DNA of 64,000 nt from assembly GCA_003224085.1 (NCBI GenBank), contig QHYK01000093.1, positions 1 through 64,000 on the forward strand, written 5' to 3'. Of the stretch, positions 8,874-22,248 are shown piece after piece. A program made the position numbers and the translations under genes. A model generated the notes under the pieces. It was not told the DNA's origin and ran no database searches. It worked only from the letters and a program-made list of their open reading frames with translations. How positions within the stretch are numbered: the stretch's first letter is position 1; each line of letters begins with the position of its first letter. The DNA comes from Acidobacteriota bacterium (lineage in GTDB: Bacteria > Acidobacteriota > Terriglobia > Acidiferrales > UBA7541).

Positions 8874-11363
8874 TTAGTGTATCGTGCTAGCTGGACTTGC
8901 CTCGACGGCAACGGCCGGGCTCGTATACAACTGGTTATGGTGCCGTCTCTTTTGCGCGAACATCCGCCGGTCGGCTTCGGAAAGAAGCTGTTCGGCATCC
9001 ATGCCTTCTTCCGGATAATAAGCGTGACCCACACTCACGGACAGCACATCTGTGCCAGATATCTCGCGGCCCGCCTCGGCGGCCAACCGTTGCAAATGGC
9101 GTATTTTGTCTTCCAGGGCTTCGGGCTTTAAGCCGGAGAGAACCAGAACGAATTCGTCCCCACCCATGCGGGCCACGTAGTCGTATTCGCGGCAGGTCTG
9201 CTTCAATTTCTCCGCAAAAGAAGTCAGCAGTCGGTTCCCTTGCAAGTGGCCGAACCGATCATTGATCTGTTTGAAGCCGTCCAGGTCACAGACCAGTACG
9301 GCGAGAGACATCCGGTGACGCCGGCAACGCGCGAGTTCGCTATCGAGATGGATAAAGAGGGAGCGAGCGTTTGGCAGACTCGTCAAATAGTCAGTTGTTG
9401 CCGTTCGCTCGGACTGCCGGTACTTCAAAGAATTTTCAAACGAGAGAGCGATTTTCGAACTGATTGCCAGCAGGATGCGGAGATGATCTCGCGTAAAGGC
9501 ATCCGCTTCCGTCCGGTAAAGCGCGAGAACGCCCACGACGCCATCCACGCCTTCCAAGGGAACGGCCAAGACCGACCGCAAAGAATGGCCGTTCGTAGGA
9601 TCATTCAAATACTCTGACTCAGTTGCCAGATTTCCGTTCACGATCGGCTTTCGGTTCGCGGCAACCCATCCCGATACGCCTTCCCCAATCGGAATCCGAA
9701 GCGAAGAAAGGAGCCGAAAATTATCGCCGCTCACGTGTTCGGGGACGAGCTGAATGTTTCGGACGGAATAGATTGCGATCGAGTCGTAGGGAACCAAGTG
9801 CTTCAGGCGAGCGGCAAGCATCGATAGCGTTTCGTCCAGGCTCAGCGAGCTACCCAGTTCTCGAGTGAGCTCGAACAGCATTTGCATTTCATGCCGCGCC
9901 GCAGCGATGGAAGTCAGGAAATCAATCGAACTGCTCCCCGGGGTGATCGGCCCGCTATCACTCTTTTCAAATCCCGCTCCCGGAGCTGTTCCGCTATCCA
10001 CTTTGATGTTTTTGGACAGTCTGGTTTGTTCGCCACCCTTGACGTTCGCCAGAAGCTCGAGTTCGCGGTAACGCCGATGAAGCACTTCTACTACTTTTGG
10101 GTCGAAGCTCTTTCCGGCTTCTCCAAGGACATGCTCCATGGCTTTTTCCAGTGGGAGGGCCGGACGATATTGGCGGTCCGAGGCAAGTCCGTCGAGGCAG
10201 TCAACCACTGCGAGGATTCGCGCACCGGTAGGAATTTCTTGCCCGCGCAGTCCGCACGGGTAACCATTCCCATCCCACCGCTCGTGGTGGGCACGCACGA
10301 TCGGAACCACCGGATAAGGGAATTGCACACGCTCAAGGATTTCCGCACCAACGTGCGGATGGATCTTCATGCGCTCGAATTCTTCGGGAGTCAGCCGCCC
10401 GGGCTTGCAGATGATGTGCTCAGGGACGGCCAGCTTGCCGATGTCGTGAAGAACCGCCGCCGCGCGAAGTGCTTCGAGCTCGGATTCCGACAGGCCCATT
10501 TCCTTTCCAATGGACATGGCATAGACCTGTACGCGCCGGAGGTGCTCATGCGTGCTGTGATCCTTGGCCTCGATTGCGAGTGCCAGAGCTTCGATCGTCC
10601 GCAGATGGAGAGCAGCCATGTTCTCAGCGTGATTCCGTTCCGCTTCCAGCCGGGCCAAGTAAAGACGGTAGGAACGGAAGATCAGATAGACAACCGGAAG
10701 AATCAGGACCGAAGACTGCCAGCCAGTTTTTTTGTCGATCAGTTCTACGACTCCCGCAATCGCGGCACCCAGCAAATAGTAGGGAAACGACCAAAAGTAA
10801 CACTCGGACCAAACCTTCCGCAGAGACTTTTGCTCGGTAAGCGAGATCACGCATGCTACGGGAGCGGTGTTCAGGACGAAGAATGTTGATGCTGCGGCGA
10901 CCAGCATAAGCAGCTGGTTATCCGCAACAAACTGGCTCACCCGCGAGTGAAACAAGTAAAATGTACCCGCCACGGCACTCGCCATGCTCGCAATGTTGAA
11001 AGCGACCTGGATTGGCTTCGGCCACCTTTTGGGTTTCCAGTAACACTGAATCACCGTGCCCAGAACGCCCATCAAAAGGGTTTGTGCCAGCGTCAGCTCT
11101 CGGACGCCGATCAGAATGAACAGAAAGATCACCGACATGGTTCCATGCACGCCGGGGAGACTCACTTTCATCCCGGAGGCCAGAAGAGCTAGAGCGAGAT
11201 AGCAGATGTAGCGTGAGGGCTCAGTCCACTGACCATGAAAAAGCCCAACAGACAAGGACAGAAGTCCCGCCAGAAGAGTAATGCCGATATAGAGCTGAGC
11301 TTTCGTGGAAGTCGGAACCATTAACCGTGCACCTGAATGGGGCTGGTGCAATCGGACTGCCAT
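8874..11363 (-). CDS. Membrane-bound c-di-GMP enzyme: sensor domain, HD-GYP, GAF and GGDEF
   Basis: About 829 residues. An N-terminal region of 6-8 membrane segments (about 20-235) has no family I can name. Next comes HD-GYP (about 245-425) with HDIGKLAVPE (306-315) and HHERWDGNGYP (359-369), both intact. A GAF domain (about 495-645) and a GGDEF domain follow, with RMGGDEF (GGDEF at 734-738) and an RxxD inhibitory site (REYD) five residues earlier. The enzyme could therefore make and degrade c-di-GMP, with product inhibition. The ATG at 11361-11363 is preceded by GGGGGATC; alternatives are GTG 11408 or ATG 11321, the latter matching best the start of the related protein at 17269. Three PilZ proteins nearby are candidate receptors. 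Confidence 0.88.
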   Translation of the reverse strand: MAVRLHQPHSGARLMVPTSTKAQLYIGITLLAGLLSLSVGLFHGQWTEPSRYICYLALALLASGMKVSLPGVHGTMSVIFLFILIGVRELTLAQTLLMGVLGTVIQCYWKPKRWPKPIQVAFNIASMASAVAGTFYLFHSRVSQFVADNQLLMLVAAASTFFVLNTAPVACVISLTEQKSLRKVWSECYFWSFPYYLLGAAIAGVVELIDKKTGWQSSVLILPVVYLIFRSYRLYLARLEAERNHAENMAALHLRTIEALALAIEAKDHSTHEHLRRVQVYAMSIGKEMGLSESELEALRAAAVLHDIGKLAVPEHIICKPGRLTPEEFERMKIHPHVGAEILERVQFPYPVVPIVRAHHERWDGNGYPCGLRGQEIPTGARILAVVDCLDGLASDRQYRPALPLEKAMEHVLGEAGKSFDPKVVEVLHRRYRELELLANVKGGEQTRLSKNIKVDSGTAPGAGFEKSDSGPITPGSSSIDFLTSIAAARHEMQMLFELTRELGSSLSLDETLSMLAARLKHLVPYDSIAIYSVRNIQLVPEHVSGDNFRLLSSLRIPIGEGVSGWVAANRKPIVNGNLATESEYLNDPTNGHSLRSVLAVPLEGVDGVVGVLALYRTEADAFTRDHLRILLAISSKIALSFENSLKYRQSERTATTDYLTSLPNARSLFIHLDSELARCRRHRMSLAVLVCDLDGFKQINDRFGHLQGNRLLTSFAEKLKQTCREYDYVARMGGDEFVLVLSGLKPEALEDKIRHLQRLAAEAGREISGTDVLSVSVGHAYYPEEGMDAEQLLSEADRRMFAQKRRHHNQLYTSPAVAVEASPASTIH

Positions 11364-11713
11364 GATCCCCCAGGGAGGTTGGCCAACCCCAACTTGTTGT
11401 GAGTTCACGACTTCGCGTCCTGGCTATACGTGTGCGCATTGCGCCGCTGGCTCGAGTGGTGACAACTTGTCACGTCCCTCTCGTACGCAGCCAAAGCGTC
11501 TCTGCACGTTTGTCTGCTATTTCCAAGAATCCCTGGGCGTCTCCGTATTGATAGGTGGTTCAGAAATAAAGAGTTAGCTCCTGCATCGGAGGGTACCTTC
11601 GGACCATATTTTCAGTTCAGAAGTACCATCGTCAATTTGTCCTTCTCGGAGCATCCTTTGAAAAGTTGCGACGCTCCATAGATCGTTTAGCGAGATTTCT
11701 GGGAGCAACGAGT
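11364..11713. promoter_or_regulatory. Divergent intergenic region between c-di-GMP enzyme and sigma-54 activator
   Basis: Roughly 350 bp carrying the promoters of two divergent genes. The only clear element is the perfect palindrome at 11459-11473. TTGGCCAA near 11381-11388 (minus-strand side) is a second small palindrome. No convincing -24/-12 or -35/-10 pair was identified. Confidence 0.5.
11459..11473. promoter_or_regulatory. Palindromic operator GTGACAA-C-TTGTCAC
   Basis: A perfect 7-1-7 inverted repeat, 240 bp before the activator gene. The same core TGACAA-N-TTGTC occurs at 13200-13214 and 15080-15094 before the two subtilase genes. Enhancer-binding proteins recognise such symmetric sites upstream of sigma-54 promoters, so the activator at 11714 is the natural candidate. 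Confidence 0.6.
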
Positions 11714-12673
11714 ATGGGTTGGAGTACAGGATCGATTCTTGGGTTACCGGCTGTCATCCACAGCGCAGCGATGCGGCGCGTAATGGAGATGGTCAAGCGC
11801 GTCGCCCAAACCGATGCCTCGGTCCTCATCACGGGCGAAAGCGGGGTCGGCAAAGAACTTGTCGCTCGGGCTTTGCACGAACAATCCCTTCGGTGCAATT
11901 CGCCCTGGGTGGACCTCAATTGCGGGGCACTCCCGGAGCATCTCGTCGAAAGTGAGCTATTCGGTTATGAGAAAGGTGCCTTCAGCGGTGCTACGCAGAC
12001 CAAGCAGGGTCTGCTCGAGCTAGCTCATCCCGGCACGCTCTTCCTGGATGAAATTGGCGACCTTGACGCCCGTTTGCAAGTGAAGCTGCTGCGAGTTTTG
12101 GATGGCGCCCCATATTACCGCCTCGGTGGGCTAAGAAAGATTTCCCCGGACGTTCGCATCGTGGCCGCGACAAACCGGGACCTGGAGAAAGATATTGAAG
12201 CGGGAAAGTTCCGCAGCGACCTCTTCCATCGGTTAACCCAGGTTCACATTCACGTGCCATCCCTGCGCGAGCGGCCGGAAGACATTCCCGTGCTTGCCGA
12301 ATTCTTCTTGCGCGAGCAAAACCACAATGTGGGTATCGCCCCGGCGGCACTGGAAGAGCTTCGTAGCTTCCCGTGGCCTGGCAACGTACGGGAACTCCGC
12401 AATGCGGTGATTCGAGCGGCGATCATGGGGTCCGGAAAGGAAATCCAGGAAGAGGACTTACCCCTGGGAAGGCAGAAAACCCCGCTGCAATCGGCTCCCG
12501 TCGTCACAAGTCTCGATGAGATGGAACGCCAGATGATTTTCCGGGCGTTGGATCAGACCTCCGGCCACCACGAGAAAGCCGCAAAGGCACTCGGGATTTC
12601 TCGGCGAACCCTGACTCGTAAGCTAAAAAAATATGAGGTCGCTAATGCACTTGAAGCAGTCGCTGCTGGCTGA
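11714..12673 (+). CDS. Orphan sigma-54-dependent transcriptional activator (PspF-like layout)
   Basis: 319 residues with no receiver or sensory domain, only about 20 residues before the AAA+ core. Walker A GESGVGKE, the sigma-54 contact loop as GAFSGA (usual form GAFTGA), Walker B LFLDEIGDL, sensor region AATNRDLE, and arginine-finger block SDLFHRLTQ. The C-terminus has a Fis-type helix-turn-helix, HHEKAAKALGISRRTLTRKL. It should open sigma-54 promoters from upstream sites. The ATG at 11714 has GGGAG nine bases upstream; a TTG 48 bp earlier is less likely. Its 3' end overlaps the PilZ gene. Without a sensor domain it is probably controlled by a binding partner or by its own abundance. Confidence 0.9.
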   Translation: MGWSTGSILGLPAVIHSAAMRRVMEMVKRVAQTDASVLITGESGVGKELVARALHEQSLRCNSPWVDLNCGALPEHLVESELFGYEKGAFSGATQTKQGLLELAHPGTLFLDEIGDLDARLQVKLLRVLDGAPYYRLGGLRKISPDVRIVAATNRDLEKDIEAGKFRSDLFHRLTQVHIHVPSLRERPEDIPVLAEFFLREQNHNVGIAPAALEELRSFPWPGNVRELRNAVIRAAIMGSGKEIQEEDLPLGRQKTPLQSAPVVTSLDEMERQMIFRALDQTSGHHEKAAKALGISRRTLTRKLKKYEVANALEAVAAG

Positions 12674-12971
12674 GCGCCCTCCGGGCCATCAGGAGGAACG
12701 TCGACGAAATCCACGCCGGGAAGTCCAGGGCGTGATCTTCCTCAGGATTCTGAAGTCAGATTTGCGCTCTGCGCCTATTCGTGCTTTTCTCATGGACTTG
12801 AGCGCGTCGGGATTTCGCGCTTCCCACGCTTCCAAAGAGCTCTGCTCCGGTCAAGAAGTTGCCTTCTGCCATGACGCAGGGAATGGAATGGCCAGGGTCG
12901 TCTGGACTCGCATCGATGGTCATAGCGTGGAGAGCGGCTTCTTGATTTGTCAGGGAAAACGCGAAGAGTAA
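12645..12971 (+). CDS. PilZ-domain protein, single domain
   Basis: About 108 residues. PilZ hallmarks are an arginine motif in RRRNPRREV and D-x-S-x-x-G as DLSASG, followed by beta strands (EVAFCHDAGNGMARVVWTR, ESGFLI). PilZ domains bind c-di-GMP and signal by protein contact. The ATG at 12645 or the one at 12633 lies inside the activator gene (overlap 29-41 bp), so expression is coupled to it. This suggests the receptor acts with the sensor-less activator, for example as its c-di-GMP-responsive partner; that is inference. Confidence 0.8.
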   Translation: MHLKQSLLAERPPGHQEERRRNPRREVQGVIFLRILKSDLRSAPIRAFLMDLSASGFRASHASKELCSGQEVAFCHDAGNGMARVVWTRIDGHSVESGFLICQGKREE

Positions 12972-13331: not shown

Positions 13332-15017
13332 ATGACTATGACAATGACGAGGAATCGCTGGCCAGTCCTTGCCTTTCTATTTATCTCCTTCCTGCCTAGC
13401 TGGGTGCTCGCCGGCCAAAACAAGATCGCCACTGACCTTCGAGTTGGCGATCCCACTTCCATTGTTGACGTTATCGTGCAATTCAAAGAGCTTCCGACCG
13501 AAGCGGACCACGGAAGGATTCACGAGCACGGTGGAACACTGAAAAGCGAGCTGCCAATAGTAAAGGGCGCTCTGTATTCTGTCCCCGTCTCCGCATTGAA
13601 AGGCCTGAGCGAGGATCCTCAAATCGTTTATATCTCGCCTGATCGCCCGGTGGGAGCTTCCCTGGATCTAACCACCGCGGCGGTAAACGCTCCCATAGCT
13701 TGGACCAACTACAAACTCGACGGCAGCGGCATTGGCATCGCTGTGATCGATAGCGGTATCTCCGCCCATCCGGACCTCGGAAGACGGGTGGTGTATCAGC
13801 AAGATTTCGTCGGCAGCGGGACTGGGGATCAGTACGGCCATGGGGAACATGTTGCTGGCATCGCGGCAGGGAACGGAATGAGTTCGAGCTGTTCGACGTG
13901 CACCCGCACCTTTAAGGGCCTGGCTCCGAACGCCTCCTTAATCAATCTCCGCGTGCTCGATCAAAACGGACAGGGGACGGACAGCGCGGTCATCTTGGCG
14001 ATCCAGCAAGCTATCAACTTAAAGACGAAATACAAAATTCGCGTCATGAACCTCTCGCTTGGCCGTCCGGTATTTGAAAGCTATCAGAAAGACCCTCTCT
14101 GCCAGGCAGCCGAGTCCGCCTGGAAATCCGGCATCGTTGTTGTCGTCGCGGCCGGCAACGATGGGCGGAATAATTCGATGGGGACCTACGGTTACGCGAC
14201 GATCAACGCACCGGGCAATGATCCGTACGTGATCACCGTGGGGGCAATGAAGACGGAGGATACGCCCCAGCGAACTGATGATCTGATCGCAAGTTATAGC
14301 TCCAAGGGTCCTACCCTGATCGATCATGTGGTGAAACCCGACATCGTTGCTCCAGGCAATTTGGTTGTCTCCCTTATGTCTCCGATCGGGACTCTCACCT
14401 CAAACTCGCAGACGCTGGTTCCGATTTCTTATTATGAACAAACGACGAGCACGGCCAAATCCACCTATTACTGCAGGCTGAGCGGCACAAGCATGGCTGC
14501 GCCGGTCGTAAGCGGGGCGGCCGCTCTCCTGCTGCAAGAGAACCCCAGCCTCACGCCGGATCAATTGAAGGCCCGGTTGATGAAGACGGCCTACAAGGGC
14601 TTCCCCGCTTTCAGCACGGCGACCGATCCAACCACCGGAGTCACCTATGTAGATCTGTACGACATTTTTACCGTCGGTTCGGGCTATTTGGATATCGCTG
14701 CGGCGTTGGCCAACGCAGATGTGGCCACCGGCAATGCGCTGTCCCCTGCCGCTACTTATAACTCGACCGATGGCTATGTCTATTTGGTCTCCAGCTCTGG
14801 CGCTGTTTGGGGTACGGGTGCGGTATGGGGAACCGGCGCGGTATGGGGCACAAACGTCTTTGTTAGCAGTACGGGAGCCGTCTGGGGTACTGGCGCCGTG
14901 TGGGGCACGAACACGGACAAGGGTTTTGGCGCGGTTTGGGGGACCGGCGCGGTATGGGGGACAAGTACGGAAGACACTGTGGGAAGCACCAACATAGCCA
15001 TTACAGGTGAAAACTAA
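13332..15017 (+). CDS. Secreted S8 subtilisin-like protease with a VWGT-repeat tail
   Basis: 561 residues. A signal peptide (PVLAFLFISFLPSWVLA) is followed by an inhibitor-like prodomain (VDVIVQFKELPT to PQIVYISPDRPV, about 45-107). The S8 core has D140 (AVIDSGI), H173 in GHGEHVAG (usually GHGTHVAG) and S387 in LSGTSMAAP, with oxyanion Asn in AAGNDG. The C-terminus (490-544) holds seven GAVWGT repeats and short spacers. It is homologous throughout to the protease at 15355. No PEP-CTERM or other sorting motif is seen. It probably acts outside the cell or at the surface. No strong ribosome binding site; the ATG at 13332 is followed by in-frame ATGs at 13338 and 13344. Confidence 0.9.
   Translation: MTMTMTRNRWPVLAFLFISFLPSWVLAGQNKIATDLRVGDPTSIVDVIVQFKELPTEADHGRIHEHGGTLKSELPIVKGALYSVPVSALKGLSEDPQIVYISPDRPVGASLDLTTAAVNAPIAWTNYKLDGSGIGIAVIDSGISAHPDLGRRVVYQQDFVGSGTGDQYGHGEHVAGIAAGNGMSSSCSTCTRTFKGLAPNASLINLRVLDQNGQGTDSAVILAIQQAINLKTKYKIRVMNLSLGRPVFESYQKDPLCQAAESAWKSGIVVVVAAGNDGRNNSMGTYGYATINAPGNDPYVITVGAMKTEDTPQRTDDLIASYSSKGPTLIDHVVKPDIVAPGNLVVSLMSPIGTLTSNSQTLVPISYYEQTTSTAKSTYYCRLSGTSMAAPVVSGAAALLLQENPSLTPDQLKARLMKTAYKGFPAFSTATDPTTGVTYVDLYDIFTVGSGYLDIAAALANADVATGNALSPAATYNSTDGYVYLVSSSGAVWGTGAVWGTGAVWGTNVFVSSTGAVWGTGAVWGTNTDKGFGAVWGTGAVWGTSTEDTVGSTNIAITGEN
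14799..14963 (+). repeat. Seven in-frame GAVWGT-coding repeats
   Basis: 18-bp units (first GGCGCTGTTTGGGGTACG at 14799-14816, last at 14946-14963) grouped 3-2-2 with spacers coding NVFVSST and NTDKGF. Units differ at synonymous positions, so the peptide, not the DNA, is being conserved. Confidence 0.9.
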
Positions 15018-15049
15018 AATGCAATCCCGACACAGCGCCGCATTGGTCC

Positions 15050-15094
15050 GAGACACGTTGTCTCTGGGACCCTCACTGAGTGACAAATTGTCTT
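15050..15094. promoter_or_regulatory. Two palindromes upstream of the second subtilase
   Basis: GAGACA-CGT-TGTCTC (15050-15064) and GTGACAAATTGTCTT (15080-15094), centres 30 bp apart, about three helical turns, so both would face the same side of the DNA. The second shares the TGACAA-N-TTGTC core with 11459 and 13200. They lie 270 bp upstream of the gene and 65 bp before the candidate sigma-54 promoter at 15159. Confidence 0.55.
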
Positions 15095-15158
15095 CTAAAC
15101 TCCGCGGTTTGGATCGCCCTAAGTGTCTCAATTACAACGAATTGTCGTTCGCAGGCGA

Positions 15159-15174
15159 TGGCATTGCACATGCA
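15159..15174 (+). promoter_or_regulatory. Candidate sigma-54 promoter of the second subtilase
   Basis: TGGCATTGCACATGCA has GG and GC exactly 10 bp apart, with TGGCA and TGCA matching the -24/-12 consensus TGGCAC-N5-TTGCA. It lies downstream of the paired palindromes at suitable enhancer spacing. The leader to the ATG at 15355 would be about 170 nt. Confidence 0.4.
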
Positions 15175-15354
15175 CCTTCTACACCGTGGCACGACACCAG
15201 GAAGGCCAGCAAACCTATGAATGGGTTGGACGATAGAGCAAAACTGATAGCCCCGACCTTGGGGTGTCGCGCTGCTTGCGGATCGCTTTTCTATGCAAAC
15301 AAGAATTCCGAGATCTACGTTTCGACCAACTTGGCACAATCTGGGAGTACTCCC

Positions 15355-17232
15355 ATGAGACAGTTCGACCGCGAAAACAAACTCATCCATCTTCCGGCGT
15401 TCAGCGCCGCAACGTGGGGCGCTCGCGTGTTGATGGCGATTGTAATTTGCGTGCTTGCGGCAGGCGCCTCCGTTGCCGACGGCAAGAAGCACAAGCTGTC
15501 TAAAGATCTCGACGCTCTGAAAGGCGGTCATAACGGCGCCACAGTGGACGTAATCATTCAATTCAACCAAACGCCGACCGCTGCCCATCACAAAAAGGTG
15601 CAAGACAAGGGTGGAGCCCTGAAGACGAAGCTAGACTTCATCAAGGGAGCCCATTATTCCGTCCCGGCTGGCTCGCTCGAGGCTTTGGAAAACGATCCCG
15701 ATGTTGCTTACATCTCGCCCAATCGTCCGCTCCGCGGCACCTCCACATCGACTCTCGACTACACTTCTGAAACCGTCAATGCGCCAGTGGCTTGGCAGCA
15801 GTGGGGTTTGGATGGCAGGGGCATCGGAGTGGCGGTTATTGACAGCGGCGTGACCGCGGTTGGCGATCTCTACTGGTGGAATCCTACCAATCAGACCTAC
15901 GGTTCGCGCGTTGTCTATAGTCAGAGCTTTGTACCCGGCACAACGGATACTTCGGACCAATATGGCCACGGAACGCATGTGGCCGGGATCATTGCGAGTG
16001 CGGGTTGGTTTTCCACCGGCGGGAACTTTACCCACACATTCAAAGGGATTGCGCCGAACGCAAACATCATTAACCTGAGAGTGCTAGATCAAAACGGCGC
16101 CGGCACCGACAGCAGCGTGATTGCGGCGATCCAGACCGCCATCAGCTTGAAATCTACGTACAACATTCGAGTGATCAACCTTTCCCTTGGCCGGCAGGTC
16201 CACGAGAGCTATACCCTCGATCCCCTCTGCCAAGCCGTCGAGGCGGCTTGGAATGCGGGCTTAGTGGTGGTTGCTGCGGCTGGCAACCAGGGGCGCAACG
16301 ACAGCGCGGGCACGGAAGGCTACGGCACCATCGCCGCTCCAGGCAACGATCCGTACGTCATCACGGTAGGCGCGATGAAGACGGCAGACACACCGACCCG
16401 CAGCGACGACACCATTGCCAGCTACAGCTCGAAAGGACCGACGGCTTACGACTTTGTCGTGAAACCCGACATCGTCGCGCCCGGAAATCAGGTCATCTCC
16501 ACTCTGGCGCCGAATGCGTCCCTACTGAGTGCTCCCACCGACGTTTATCTGAGCGAGTATTCCTCGTCCTCCTCCTCCTCGATGACCGCGAGCACTGGCT
16601 CGGGCGGCAACGGCAAGAACAATAAGAAGGACTCCACGTCAAGCCTCTCCACCATGACCACCAACACGATCTCGCCGTCTTATATGCGGTTGAGCGGTAC
16701 CAGCATGGCCACGCCGGTGGTCAGTGGCGCCGCCGTACTTCTGCTTCAGCAAAATCCGAACCTTACGCCGGATCAAGTCAAGGCCCGTTTGATGAAAACG
16801 GCCTCCAAGAACTTTCCTGCTTACAGTACAGTCGCGGACCCCACCACGGGCGTAACCTACACCGATTACTATGATATTTTCACGATCGGCGCCGGCTATC
16901 TGGACATCGCCGCTGCCCTCTCCAGCAGCGATCTGGCCGATGCTTCGGCTGTGTCTCCGGCCGCAGTCTTTGACCCCTCCACGCAAAGCGTCTATCTCGT
17001 TACTGGGCAGGGCGTTGTTTGGGGAGATTCTTCACCTTGGGCCACTTCGCTTGTTTGGGGCACAAACGTCTTCGTGAATGGAACTGCCGTGCTGTGGGGG
17101 AGCAGCGTTTGCTGGGGCACGAGCTCCAACGCGGGCTTCAGCGTCGTGTGGGGCACTGGGGTTGTCTGGGGCGACACCTCGAATCAGGCGACTTCCACAG
17201 CGTTGAGCATTTTGGTTGGCGGCGAGAAGTGA
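15355..17232 (+). CDS. Secreted S8 subtilisin-like protease with a degenerate VWG tail
   Basis: 625 residues from the ATG at 15355 (GGGAG eight bases upstream); an open frame runs further 5' through the operator region but is not coding. Layout: signal/anchor segment (WGARVLMAIVICVLAAGASV), prodomain (VDVIIQFNQTPT), S8 core with D163, H208 (GHGTHVAG) and S450 (LSGTSMATP). A Ser/Thr/Gly/Lys-rich insert at about 400-440, absent from the first subtilase, precedes the serine. The C-terminal tail carries VWG units (VVWGD, LVWGT, VLWGS, VCWGT, VVWGT) in diverged form with the same NVFV spacer. Probably an ancient tandem duplicate of the neighbouring protease. Confidence 0.9.
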   Translation: MRQFDRENKLIHLPAFSAATWGARVLMAIVICVLAAGASVADGKKHKLSKDLDALKGGHNGATVDVIIQFNQTPTAAHHKKVQDKGGALKTKLDFIKGAHYSVPAGSLEALENDPDVAYISPNRPLRGTSTSTLDYTSETVNAPVAWQQWGLDGRGIGVAVIDSGVTAVGDLYWWNPTNQTYGSRVVYSQSFVPGTTDTSDQYGHGTHVAGIIASAGWFSTGGNFTHTFKGIAPNANIINLRVLDQNGAGTDSSVIAAIQTAISLKSTYNIRVINLSLGRQVHESYTLDPLCQAVEAAWNAGLVVVAAAGNQGRNDSAGTEGYGTIAAPGNDPYVITVGAMKTADTPTRSDDTIASYSSKGPTAYDFVVKPDIVAPGNQVISTLAPNASLLSAPTDVYLSEYSSSSSSSMTASTGSGGNGKNNKKDSTSSLSTMTTNTISPSYMRLSGTSMATPVVSGAAVLLLQQNPNLTPDQVKARLMKTASKNFPAYSTVADPTTGVTYTDYYDIFTIGAGYLDIAAALSSSDLADASAVSPAAVFDPSTQSVYLVTGQGVVWGDSSPWATSLVWGTNVFVNGTAVLWGSSVCWGTSSNAGFSVVWGTGVVWGDTSNQATSTALSILVGGEK

Positions 17233-17268: not shown

Positions 17269-17997
17269 ATGCCCACTAAAGCCAAACTCTACATCTCGTG
17301 GATCGCCGCCGCCGGCCTCATCGTCTTGGTCGCGGGCTTGTCCCGCTGGCAGTCCACCGGACTCCGGCGTCTTCTCGCGTTCCTTTTCCTGGCGATGCTG
17401 CTCTCCACGCAAAAGATCCGTCTCCCGGGAATGAAAGGCACGATGTCACTCAGCTTCCCGTTCATCTTGGTCGGGATCGCAGACTTCGGCTTCGGCGAAA
17501 CACTTCTGCTCGGTTGCACCGCTGCGTTCGTGCAGACGCTGTGGCACGCCAAAACCCCGCCCAAACCGGAGCAGATCGTGTTCAACATGGCCACGTTGGT
17601 GCTGTCCGCTGGATGCGCGGACTGGCTCAGCCATGCGACACTGCGGCTAGTGCATCTTAATTCTCTCGTCCTGCTTCTTGCCTCTGCTTCTCTAATTTAT
17701 CTGCTCCTGAACACAGGCCTGGTTGCAGGAGTCATTTCGCTGGCGGAGGAAAAGCCTTTTCAGAGGGAATGGCTTCACTGCTTCTATTGGGCGTTTCCTT
17801 ATTTCCTGGTGGGCGCGGTTGCCGCCGGTCTGGTCAGCACATTGAACCAGTCCGGAAGCTGGGTCGCGGGGCTCTTGGTGCTGCCGCTGATCTATCTGTG
17901 CCATTTCTGGTATCAGATTCATGTCGAAAGAGCTGTCCGCGTGCAAGCCGCCGTCCCCGGTTCCGACGAGATTTCTGCGGTCCTCGTGCAAGACTGA
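17269..17997 (+). CDS. Integral membrane protein related to the sensor domain of the c-di-GMP enzyme
   Basis: 242 residues, about 7-8 membrane segments and no catalytic domain. It aligns with the N-terminal membrane region of the HD-GYP/GGDEF protein at 8874-11363: TKAKLYISWIAAAGLIVLV against TKAQLYIGITLLAGLLSLS, KIRLPGMKGTMSLSFPFILV against KVSLPGVHGTMSVIFLFILI, and LLNTGLVAGVISLAEEK against VLNTAPVACVISLTEQK. The ATG at 17269 follows GGCGGGGAACAGAC and matches the related protein's likely start. It lies 36 bp after the second subtilase, so they may be co-transcribed. Ligand and partner are unknown; a role in sensing or interaction with the c-di-GMP enzyme is inference. Confidence 0.75.
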   Translation: MPTKAKLYISWIAAAGLIVLVAGLSRWQSTGLRRLLAFLFLAMLLSTQKIRLPGMKGTMSLSFPFILVGIADFGFGETLLLGCTAAFVQTLWHAKTPPKPEQIVFNMATLVLSAGCADWLSHATLRLVHLNSLVLLLASASLIYLLLNTGLVAGVISLAEEKPFQREWLHCFYWAFPYFLVGAVAAGLVSTLNQSGSWVAGLLVLPLIYLCHFWYQIHVERAVRVQAAVPGSDEISAVLVQD

Positions 17998-20440: not shown

Positions 20441-22248
20441 ATGATGAGCGCTCTCGAAAAGAAGGATCCGCACAGAAGACAGCAAACCGTTGCGCGGTTC
20501 CTGTTTGGAACTGTAGCCCTGGCCCTGTTCGTCCTTGTTCCCACTTCCTTCCTTTCAAGGTCCTATGTGGCTGCACAAGAGCCGAAGGCAGCGCAGACTA
20601 ACAACCCCGGCGGCCAAGCCACCCTCAAAACCACCGTGCGCCAAGTGTTGCTGGATGTCGTCGTAACTGACAGAAAAAACCATCCCGTTTCCGGCCTCCG
20701 CCAGGAAGATTTTTCTATTCTGGAAGACGGCGTGCCTCAGAACATCATTTTTTTTGAGCCCCACACGGCTTTTTCTGATGCATCAGCTCCGAAACTTTCG
20801 GAAGCGCCAGCCCTGCCGCCAAATACCTTCGTGAATACCTCCTCTGCGACCGACAAACTTCCACTGAACGTGCTGCTTTATGACCTACTGAACACTCCGC
20901 TCACCGATCAGCCTTTCGCGCGCCAAGAGATCGTCAAATTCCTGCGGAATCGGCCCGCTGGAAGCCGCTTTGCGATTTTCGTACTGGCGGACACGCTTCA
21001 CTTGGTGCAGGGATTTACCGACGACGAGCGCCAGCTCGTTGCGGCGATGCAGCGCAAGGAGGCCAACCCGCATTCCACTCTCTTTTATCAATCGTCGGCC
21101 GGACTTCAAGGTACATCCGCACAATTCGCAGGGAATCCTGCTCTCGGGAACGACGGGACCGCACAAGCGATGCTGGGCCGGTTACAAAACATGGAGCAGC
21201 TCACTAGGAGATTTTATCTGTCGCGCCGCGTGGAACAGACCCTTGCGGCTTTCGAGGAAATCGCGAGATTCTTGAGCGGCTTGCCCGGCCGGAAAAATCT
21301 GATTTGGCTTTCTGGTTCCTTCCCCGCGAATATTTTCCCGGGGACCGATCCATGGGCCCCTTTGGAGGCATCACGATCTACGATGCGTCTAACCCCGCGA
21401 CTTATCGCTCACCGGAAGACTTCCGCAGAGCGCACCAGAACTTCATTCTGGAGATTGCCGCCGAGCAGGCCACCATGGACCAGGTCGCCGACGACACCGG
21501 CGGCCATGCTTTCTATAACACCAACGGCCTGTCCGACGCGATTGCCACAAGTACAGAAGATGGCTCGAACTACTTCACGCTGGGCTATACGCCAAGCAAC
21601 ACAAAATTTGACGGCCGCCTCCGCAAAATCCGCGTCCAACTCTCTCACGGCGGTGACCACCTGGCCTACCGCCACAGCTATCTCGCCGACGACAGCGCCG
21701 TGGAGCAGAGTGCGGCCAACGCTGCGACGATGAGGCTTCAGGTGGCGCTACGGCGCGGGGCACCGTTGGCACAGGAGCTCTCCCTTCAGGCGCGCATCAC
21801 ACCGCAAGGGAGGGCCAAGGCGGCCACAAAGGAAGAGATCGCCCAGCTCGCTCAGTTTCCGGCGTACAACTCGCGAAAGAAGTGGGATGCCGTGAGAATT
21901 CAGCGCTACTCGCTCGAATATGCGATTGAAGGATCGCAAGTCGCCCTCGAGCCCGCCGAGGAGGGCGGTCTGCATGCCAAGTTCGAAATCCTGATTGGCG
22001 CCTACGACGAGGAAAACCGAACGATGTTCGGGTACCGGTCACCCCTCGAAAGGATGTATTTGGTGAAGAATGCCGACGAGGTCCTAAAGGGATCTTTTCA
22101 CTTGCGGCACATGGTGGAAATTCCAAGCGAAGCCGCTTGGCTGCGAGTGGCAGTGCGCGATGCCATTGGAGATCGCCTTGGCTCAGTCGAAATTCCCCTG
22201 CCGGTGGCCGTCAAGCTGCCTGTGAGAGCAAGCAGGATGCTGCGTTAG
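20441..22248 (+). pseudogene. Secreted VWFA-related (acidobacterial) domain protein, split by a frameshift
   Basis: The first frame starts at 20441 with a signal segment (FLFGTVALALFVLVPTSFLS), then TVRQVLLDVVVTDRKNHPVS, FSILEDGVPQ and LNVLLYDLLNTPL, the opening of the VWFA-related family common in Acidobacteriota. It continues to GRKNLIWLSGSFPANIFPG. Near 21350-21362 coherent coding moves to another frame (FGGITIYDASNPATYRSPED, DDTGGHAFYNTNGLSDAI, YFTLGYTPSNTKFDGRLRKI) and ends at 22248. The two halves make one ~600-residue protein with a one-base deletion. Function of the family is unknown. The good second half suggests a recent lesion or an assembly error. Confidence 0.85.

Follow-up and report, generated by a model that had tools for sequence, protein, structure and literature searches.

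The 64,000-nucleotide stretch of DNA analysed here (the window; contig QHYK01000093.1 of an Acidobacteriota bacterium) encodes two tandem subtilases of the S8 family, each ending in a tail of tryptophan-containing (W) hexads, followed by a standalone membrane protein related to the MASE9 sensor domain. Comparison of sequences establishes the hexad tail, its place behind the S8 domain, and its repeated pairing, on the same strand and often in overlap, with a gene for a MASE9 domain of varied output. The reading that the tail is a partner-specific module of secreted subtilases working with MASE9-type membrane sensors has, in our judgement, about an even chance of being right. An earlier note on this DNA was confined to the two proteases; the adjoining genes, which suggest a MASE9 membrane sensor as the partner of the tail, lay outside its coordinates and were not considered there. 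The conserved protease-sensor pair is a larger finding than that note described, and the literature searches, as far as the portions of text they returned go, contained no description of this tail or of an S8 protease paired with MASE9.

Both proteases (Table 1) match Peptidase_S8 (PF00082) with scores of 191.1 and 176.6 bits, above the cut-off of 21.8. In subtilase 1 this is the sole Pfam match (residues 131-422, E 3e-56), while in subtilase 2, in the form starting at ATG 15355, it spans residues 154-486 (E 9e-52). The N-terminus of subtilase 1 was judged by eye to be a signal peptide. For subtilase 2 a GTG start at 15007 is unlikely because it overlaps gene 1, and ATG 15355 was taken as the start because an apparent signal peptide, also judged by eye, comes right after it. 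Among 36 aligned rows (subtilase 1 and 35 homologues, two rows incomplete), H170 and S387 are invariant and D140 is nearly so; these we take to be the catalytic His, Ser and Asp. The His motif of subtilase 1 (13839-13850) reads HGEH rather than HGTH, as it does in L004, L038, L039 and L052. A T-W-G-x-R motif immediately precedes the hydrophobic stretch of the signal peptide in subtilase 2 (15412-15426) and in many tailed proteases (alignment A1), and is lacking in subtilase 1. The genome contains 13 Pfam S8 matches, and its closest named relative, the one found in the scan with protein 1, is an Acidobacteriota metagenome-assembled genome (L004; 56% identity in the best segment).

Table 1. Genes and tails of the protease locus in the window
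Feature	Position	Strand	Remarks
MASE9-like + HD-GYP + GAF + GGDEF protein	8874..11408	-	divergent to the protease operon
Sigma-54 activator, Fis-type HTH	11666..12673	+	heads the plus-strand block; PF00158 2e-66, HTH_8 4e-14
PilZ-like protein	12633..12971	+	precedes subtilase 1; PF07238 E 0.0087, below cut-off; four loci in cluster c9
Subtilase 1 (protein 1)	13332..15017	+	561 amino acids; S8 domain, C-terminal W-hexad tail
Tail of subtilase 1	14799..14963	+	seven exact GAVWGT hexads in 3-2-2 groups; spacers NVFVSST, NTDKGF
Subtilase 2 (protein 2)	15355..17232	+	S8 domain and diverged tail; start uncertain, ATG 15355 assumed
Tail of subtilase 2	17011..17175	+	same hexad layout, diverged; spacer NVFVNG
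Standalone MASE9-like membrane protein	17269..17997	+	5-6 transmembrane segments (crude hydropathy); directly downstream of subtilase 2

The earlier note had described seven GAVWGT units in three groups at the end of the first protease and a diverged form of the same tail, with the same NVFV spacer, in the second, and both descriptions hold. The spacing of the tryptophans is identical in the two tails (6, 6, 13, 6, 12, 6), NVFVSS or NVFVNG filling the 13-residue gap, and the units do differ in synonymous codons, the seven of tail 1 having seven distinct DNA spellings. Tandem Repeats Finder detected arrays in tail 1 only, not in tail 2. A search of the same genome with tail 1 retrieved tail 2 as a paralogue (E 2e-18), together with one further weak match of 31 residues (E 0.04) on a contig without an S8 match. 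No Pfam or NCBIfam model scored above its cut-off in the tail region of either protein, in agreement with the note's statement that the tail is not a domain that can be named. The layout is not a product of chance, because it recurs in relatives of the same genus, and the tail is conserved in homologues: in the 36 aligned rows five of the seven tail tryptophan columns are invariant and two are kept in at least 90%, alongside the active-site motifs.

A search with tail 1 in the genomes of 121 relatives gave matches in 26 of them. A repeat profile made from 21 tails (A2), searched at E up to 0.01 in 297 Acidobacteriota genomes, matched 79 genomes and 58 of the 167 genera, a few of these matches being weak or crossing stop codons; in a set of 11 genomes, 46 of the 47 tail matches lay directly behind an S8 domain. 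The usual hexad of this family is x-[VIAL]-[VLI]-W-G-[DNSTE]. When 85 S8-like open reading frames (ORFs) from the fetched loci were scored by script, 62 contained runs of at least three hexads (29 all with W, 28 mixed and 5 without W, with run lengths of 3 to 32 units) and 23 contained none. The hexad composition found in this way is partly circular, since the search pattern preset the residue classes at positions 2, 3, 5 and 6. Many tails terminate in GEN, GEK, GED or GD, and five of ten long ones (L076, L078, L080, L081 and L082) end exactly at the last hexad. The five genomes examined of family f31, all within the 79, have the Trp-less hexads GVLVGD, GVLIGD and GVIAGD. Judged from sequence, the tails thus form a repeat family for which neither Pfam nor NCBIfam has a model. 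A plasmid search gave a match at one place, where no gene is annotated, and none of 51 ORFs with spaced tryptophans on viral contigs carried an S8 signature, several being phage hexapeptide-type proteins. Six of the viral-contig proteins (L209, L215, L218, L238, L258 and L263) have AKVWGN/AKVSGD-type hexads, with Trp at a different hexad position in the phage repeats; L209 is above the Bactofilin cut-off, and L209 and L218 gave sub-threshold YdcK-solenoid matches.

Clustering of neighbouring genes showed that many tailed genes adjoin a member of a second gene family. What the members of this family share is a MASE9-like membrane domain, in which a crude count finds about 3-6 hydrophobic segments. 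The standalone protein of the window matches the Pfam MASE9 model (PF20972) with E 0.0015 and 18.9 bits, below the cut-off of 24.3 bits, and our profile A5 of MASE9-like domains with E 2e-85, though it is itself a row of A5. The divergent protein comprises HD_5 (1e-36), GAF_2 (1e-14) and GGDEF (2e-39) domains and a MASE9 match of E 0.0035 and 17.7 bits, likewise below the cut-off. Among eight partners scored with PF20972, L278 (34.6 bits) and L279 (26.3 bits) were above the cut-off, L049 (21.5), L294 (14.6) and L299 (17.2) were below it with the two window proteins, and L066 had no match; for ten partners from other genomes, four were above (28.1, 32.1, 25.1 and 25.7 bits), three below and three without a match. 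Standalone partners of about 230-300 amino acids, directly downstream of the protease, occur mainly in the window's own class. Fused partners, found in that class and elsewhere, carry HD-GYP+GAF, HD-GYP+GAF+GGDEF, GGDEF, GGDEF-EAL or HisKA-HATPase outputs.

The association of tail and MASE9-like domain was examined in 11 genomes, with profile A5 and every S8 match of E 1e-10 or lower (88 in all). A MASE9-like domain was located within 3 kb of 17 of the 32 tailed S8 genes vs none of the 56 untailed ones (Fisher 9e-10), and within 5 kb of 18 of 32 vs none of 56 (Fisher 2e-10), both uncorrected for kinship. Conversely, 22 of the 30 MASE9-like matches in these genomes had a tailed S8 gene no more than 3.4 kb away, and in the four genomes that have no row in A5 three of six tailed genes had a MASE9-like domain within 3 kb. 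In the set of 297 genomes, 69 of the 79 tail-positive genomes were A5-positive vs 33 of the 218 others, again uncorrected for kinship. Among the listed matches, 37 of 105 merged tails have a MASE9-like domain within 5 kb, while random placement in a 4.5 Mb genome predicts about 0.3 of the 105 with such a domain within 3 kb; in genomes without a row in A5 the domain was present within 1.5 kb of 18 of 75 listed tails, in all 18 cases on the same strand and downstream.

Since A5 was built from loci beside tails, the curated Pfam MASE9 model was added as a test. It gave 83 above-cut-off matches in the 297 genomes, 17 of which, from 16 genomes, are no more than 2 kb away from a listed tail where about 0.12 would be expected, and all 17 are on the same strand and downstream. 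With the model relaxed to E 1e-3, 23 of the 105 listed tails were paired, all of them with the MASE9 gene downstream on the same strand.

The converse test began from MASE9 in 20 genomes, most of them picked for MASE9 matches away from listed tails, and used 149 of the S8 rows listed, the second piece of one gene being left out. At least 15 of 42 curated MASE9 matches have an S8 gene within 2.2 kb, always upstream and on the same strand. Seven rows, sub-threshold or from A5, were added out of 14 picked by hand, which brought the loci to 20 distinct ones, and two further loci brought them to 22. All 22 S8 genes, chosen for preceding a MASE9 or MASE9-like domain, possess W-repeat C-termini, 20 as scored by script and two by eye (L357 and L354, the latter with only three units visible). 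Nineteen of the 22 were not among the listed tail places and three were already there, and the new tails include the hexad spellings SIFWGQ, GIAWSD, GMFWTD and GLIWGG. For 18 of these genes the Trp content is 7.5% in the last 110 residues vs 0.95% elsewhere. The control was a random sample of 20 out of 89 S8 genes of the same genomes that do not adjoin MASE9, with about 40 weaker rows excluded; all 20 C-termini were seen, two had a W tail, whether the last 150 or the last 110 residues were considered, and none of the 20 control stretches contained a MASE9-like gene.

The two genes of the pair are often closely spaced. Of 45 rows with both genes on one strand, which represent 44 distinct pairs because one was retrieved twice, 14 have the end of the protease gene overlapping the start of the sensor gene; together with those in which at most 30 nucleotides intervene, the number is 21. 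The median distance is 33 nucleotides, starts having been called mechanically as the first start, and about 1 kb separates the genes in five rows (L317, L331, L334, L341 and, for its second partner, L301). In L331, L334 and L341 the GVLVGD-tailed protease is separated from the MASE9-like/GGDEF gene by another gene of about 300 codons. Two consecutive MASE9-like domains follow the tailed protease in L279 (1957-3612, minus strand) and L362 (G286:C872). In L056 and L068 the S8 gene adjoining MASE9 looks broken, and the W tail is in a separate short ORF. At five loci of cluster c8 (L292, L293, L295, L296 and L297) a GNAT-like acetyltransferase, so assigned by eye from four of the sequences, directly adjoins a tailed S8 gene with spaced NIVWGD-type hexads. 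The plus-strand block of the window runs from the sigma-54 activator through the PilZ-like gene, subtilase 1 and subtilase 2 to the standalone MASE9-like gene, and the same sigma-54 activator block was found in L035, L037 and L048. Further downstream, two overlapping ORFs in different frames (20441-22248, from the ORF list) look like one frame-split gene, presumably for a von Willebrand-type secreted protein.

In a tree of S8 domains with 106 rows the MASE9-adjacent rows do not form one clade, and the adjacency label must change at least 22 times, 15 of these changes being required by supported branches, vs a shuffle mean of 35.5. The labels are rough: only 11 rows bear the label untailed, of which at least two (L045 and L064) do have tails, overlooked by the script; L056, L068 and L354 are broken or masked. 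Most of the untailed controls failed the tree filters. For these reasons the tree does not allow a test of how often the tail arose.

Several observations weigh against a working partnership of tail and sensor. Fourteen of the 32 tailed genes in the 11-genome test have no MASE9 nearby, 68 of the 105 tails among the listed matches have none within 5 kb, and 27 of the 42 curated MASE9 matches in the converse test have no S8 gene alongside among the matches listed. Five tailed S8 genes have the GNAT-like neighbour in place of MASE9. Profile A5 was derived from loci adjoining tails, and seven of the 11 test genomes supplied rows to it. The counts are not independent events, because the S8 genes are related, and they probably reflect an old pairing kept or lost many times rather than independent origins. 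Structure prediction with AlphaFold2 left the tail without confident structure: for protein 1 the mean predicted local distance difference test (pLDDT) score was 67.0, with 320 of 561 residues at 70 or above and values of about 22-34 from residue 481 onward, and a 16-unit TLVWGD tail scored 28.5.

With these points taken into account, tail and MASE9 are best read, by analogy, as coupling an envelope protease to cyclic di-GMP (c-di-GMP) or kinase signalling, functionally like LapG and LapD. The membrane domain is the element common to the partners, which suggests that the protease is matched to the MASE9 domain; and since this domain is common, also occurs standalone and is absent beside the untailed subtilases tested, tail and MASE9 may meet at the membrane, possibly in direct contact. 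The exported protease would remain on the outer side of the inner membrane, its tryptophan-rich tail docked onto the MASE9 helices or next to them. This docking, or undocking once the protease becomes engaged or is shed, would alter c-di-GMP turnover or kinase activity. In the alternative direction the protease would be kept in check by the sensor, as LapG is by LapD. The standalone MASE9 protein of the window's class may be a dock or co-receptor beside the MASE9-HD-GYP-GGDEF protein. A stronger version, in which the W-hexad tail serves MASE9 as ligand or docking element, that is, as a protein-encoded, co-evolving input of a membrane-embedded sensor, is put forward only tentatively. If it is true, a whole family of envelope subtilases reports to, or is restrained by, c-di-GMP enzymes and kinases via one interchangeable membrane domain.

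The earlier note had proposed an anchoring or substrate-binding module. Its interpretation is partly supported: the tail is a conserved C-terminal module, and neither of the outcomes that the note named as refuting, a match to a described domain or a lack of conservation in orthologues, was observed. Nothing was found that hints at a ligand in the wall or at a polysaccharide. Glycan binding is frequent among aromatic-rich repeats, many tails lie far from any MASE9 gene, and the HD-GYP, GGDEF, EAL and PilZ-like proteins in the neighbourhood suggest a surface or biofilm programme, so the tail could be an anchor that fixes the protease on a polysaccharide or on the surface of the cell, the MASE9 neighbours being there merely because biofilm proteases and c-di-GMP genes are co-regulated. 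However, co-regulation alone explains neither a constant membrane domain with varied outputs, nor the output-less MASE9 copies, nor the absence of MASE9 near all 56 untailed S8 genes, and we consider this explanation unlikely, if the most serious of the alternatives.

Rather improbable is a purely structural role, in which the tail is a hexapeptide beta-solenoid (left-handed beta-helix, LbH) serving as a stalk or in oligomerisation, with any MASE9 contact made via the protease domain. The W-free GVLVGD-type tails, which occupy the same position in homologous S8 proteins, scored above the cut-off of PF00132 (Hexapep) in three of four cases (L334, 38.1 bits; L341, 29.3 bits; L331, 39.7 bits; none in L330), and for one such tail the PDB gave matches to hexapeptide enzymes. 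For W tails the PDB matches were sub-threshold only, and all of them (2 of 2 and 9 of 9 rows, 10 distinct sequences) were by name of the hexapeptide transferase or gamma-carbonic-anhydrase type, which we take to share the hexapeptide fold. The register W-G-[DN]-[ST]-[VI]-x agrees with the hexapeptide consensus except for the W, and position 1 of the hexad tolerates R, Q and N, a variability that would fit an exposed turn in this register. Against such a solenoid, PF00132 did not match the tails of the window proteins or of L081 and gave 10.3 bits for L058 vs a cut-off of 27. With W masked, none of five forward tails reached Hexapep, one having another sub-threshold match, and the reversed controls did equally well or better, two of five giving sub-threshold LbH_EIF2B matches. 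Alignment by hhalign with a W-free target gave 94.7% forward and 94.4% reversed, a weak control because the W-free target reads alike backwards. Taken together, these controls did not separate forward from reversed tails. A Trp in the narrow LbH core is sterically doubtful, and the 16-unit tail was modelled with low pLDDT. An antiparallel meander with its turns at G-[NDST] is another conceivable fold.

It is very unlikely that the tail is a C-terminal propeptide or a secretion or sorting element cut from the mature protease: it is strictly C-terminal and half of the ten listed long tails stop exactly at the last hexad, but the MASE9 link would be left unexplained, and we know of no sorting system with such a hexad signal. 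Neutral DNA slippage, to which the wide variation in unit number (3 to 32 in-register hexads) might point, is scarcely credible given the different codons of the units and the tryptophan columns kept in the homologues.

Compared with known families, the proteases share the catalytic domain and active-site motifs of S8 subtilases (PF00082), and differ in the W-hexad tail, which lies outside any Pfam or NCBIfam match. The tail resembles hexapeptide LbH proteins (PF00132, and PF18836 of YdcK) in its six-residue period and G-[DN] step, and its W-free forms mostly pass Hexapep, whereas the W tails, with Trp in place of the conserved aliphatic residue, stay below the cut-off. The sensors belong to the same domain family as MASE9 (PF20972), several partners being above the cut-off and the window members below it; the pairing with tailed subtilases and the output-less copies were not found described in the excerpts that the literature searches made available. 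To our knowledge, the ligands of MASE domains are largely open. One review counts MASE1 among the putative sensory domains without discernible physiological purpose (PMC8846402). A pair kept across a phylum while its outputs change provides a concrete and testable candidate input for MASE9.

The nearest working analogy is LapD/LapG, in which an extracytoplasmic protease is coupled to an inner-membrane protein with c-di-GMP domains and signalling is described as bi-directional (PMC5231407; see also PMC3032545 and PMC3032553). As that system is commonly defined and as PMC5231407 describes it, a LapG-type cysteine protease and a LapD periplasmic domain are not present here, where Pfam shows S8 and MASE9. 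An adhesin substrate was not identified here, and the HD-GYP and histidine-kinase outputs are not those of LapD. What the two systems have in common is an extracytoplasmic protease with an inner-membrane partner bearing c-di-GMP domains; built here from a subtilase and a MASE9-like membrane part, the tailed protease and its sensor suggest another evolutionary solution to the coupling of proteases with c-di-GMP beside LapD/LapG.

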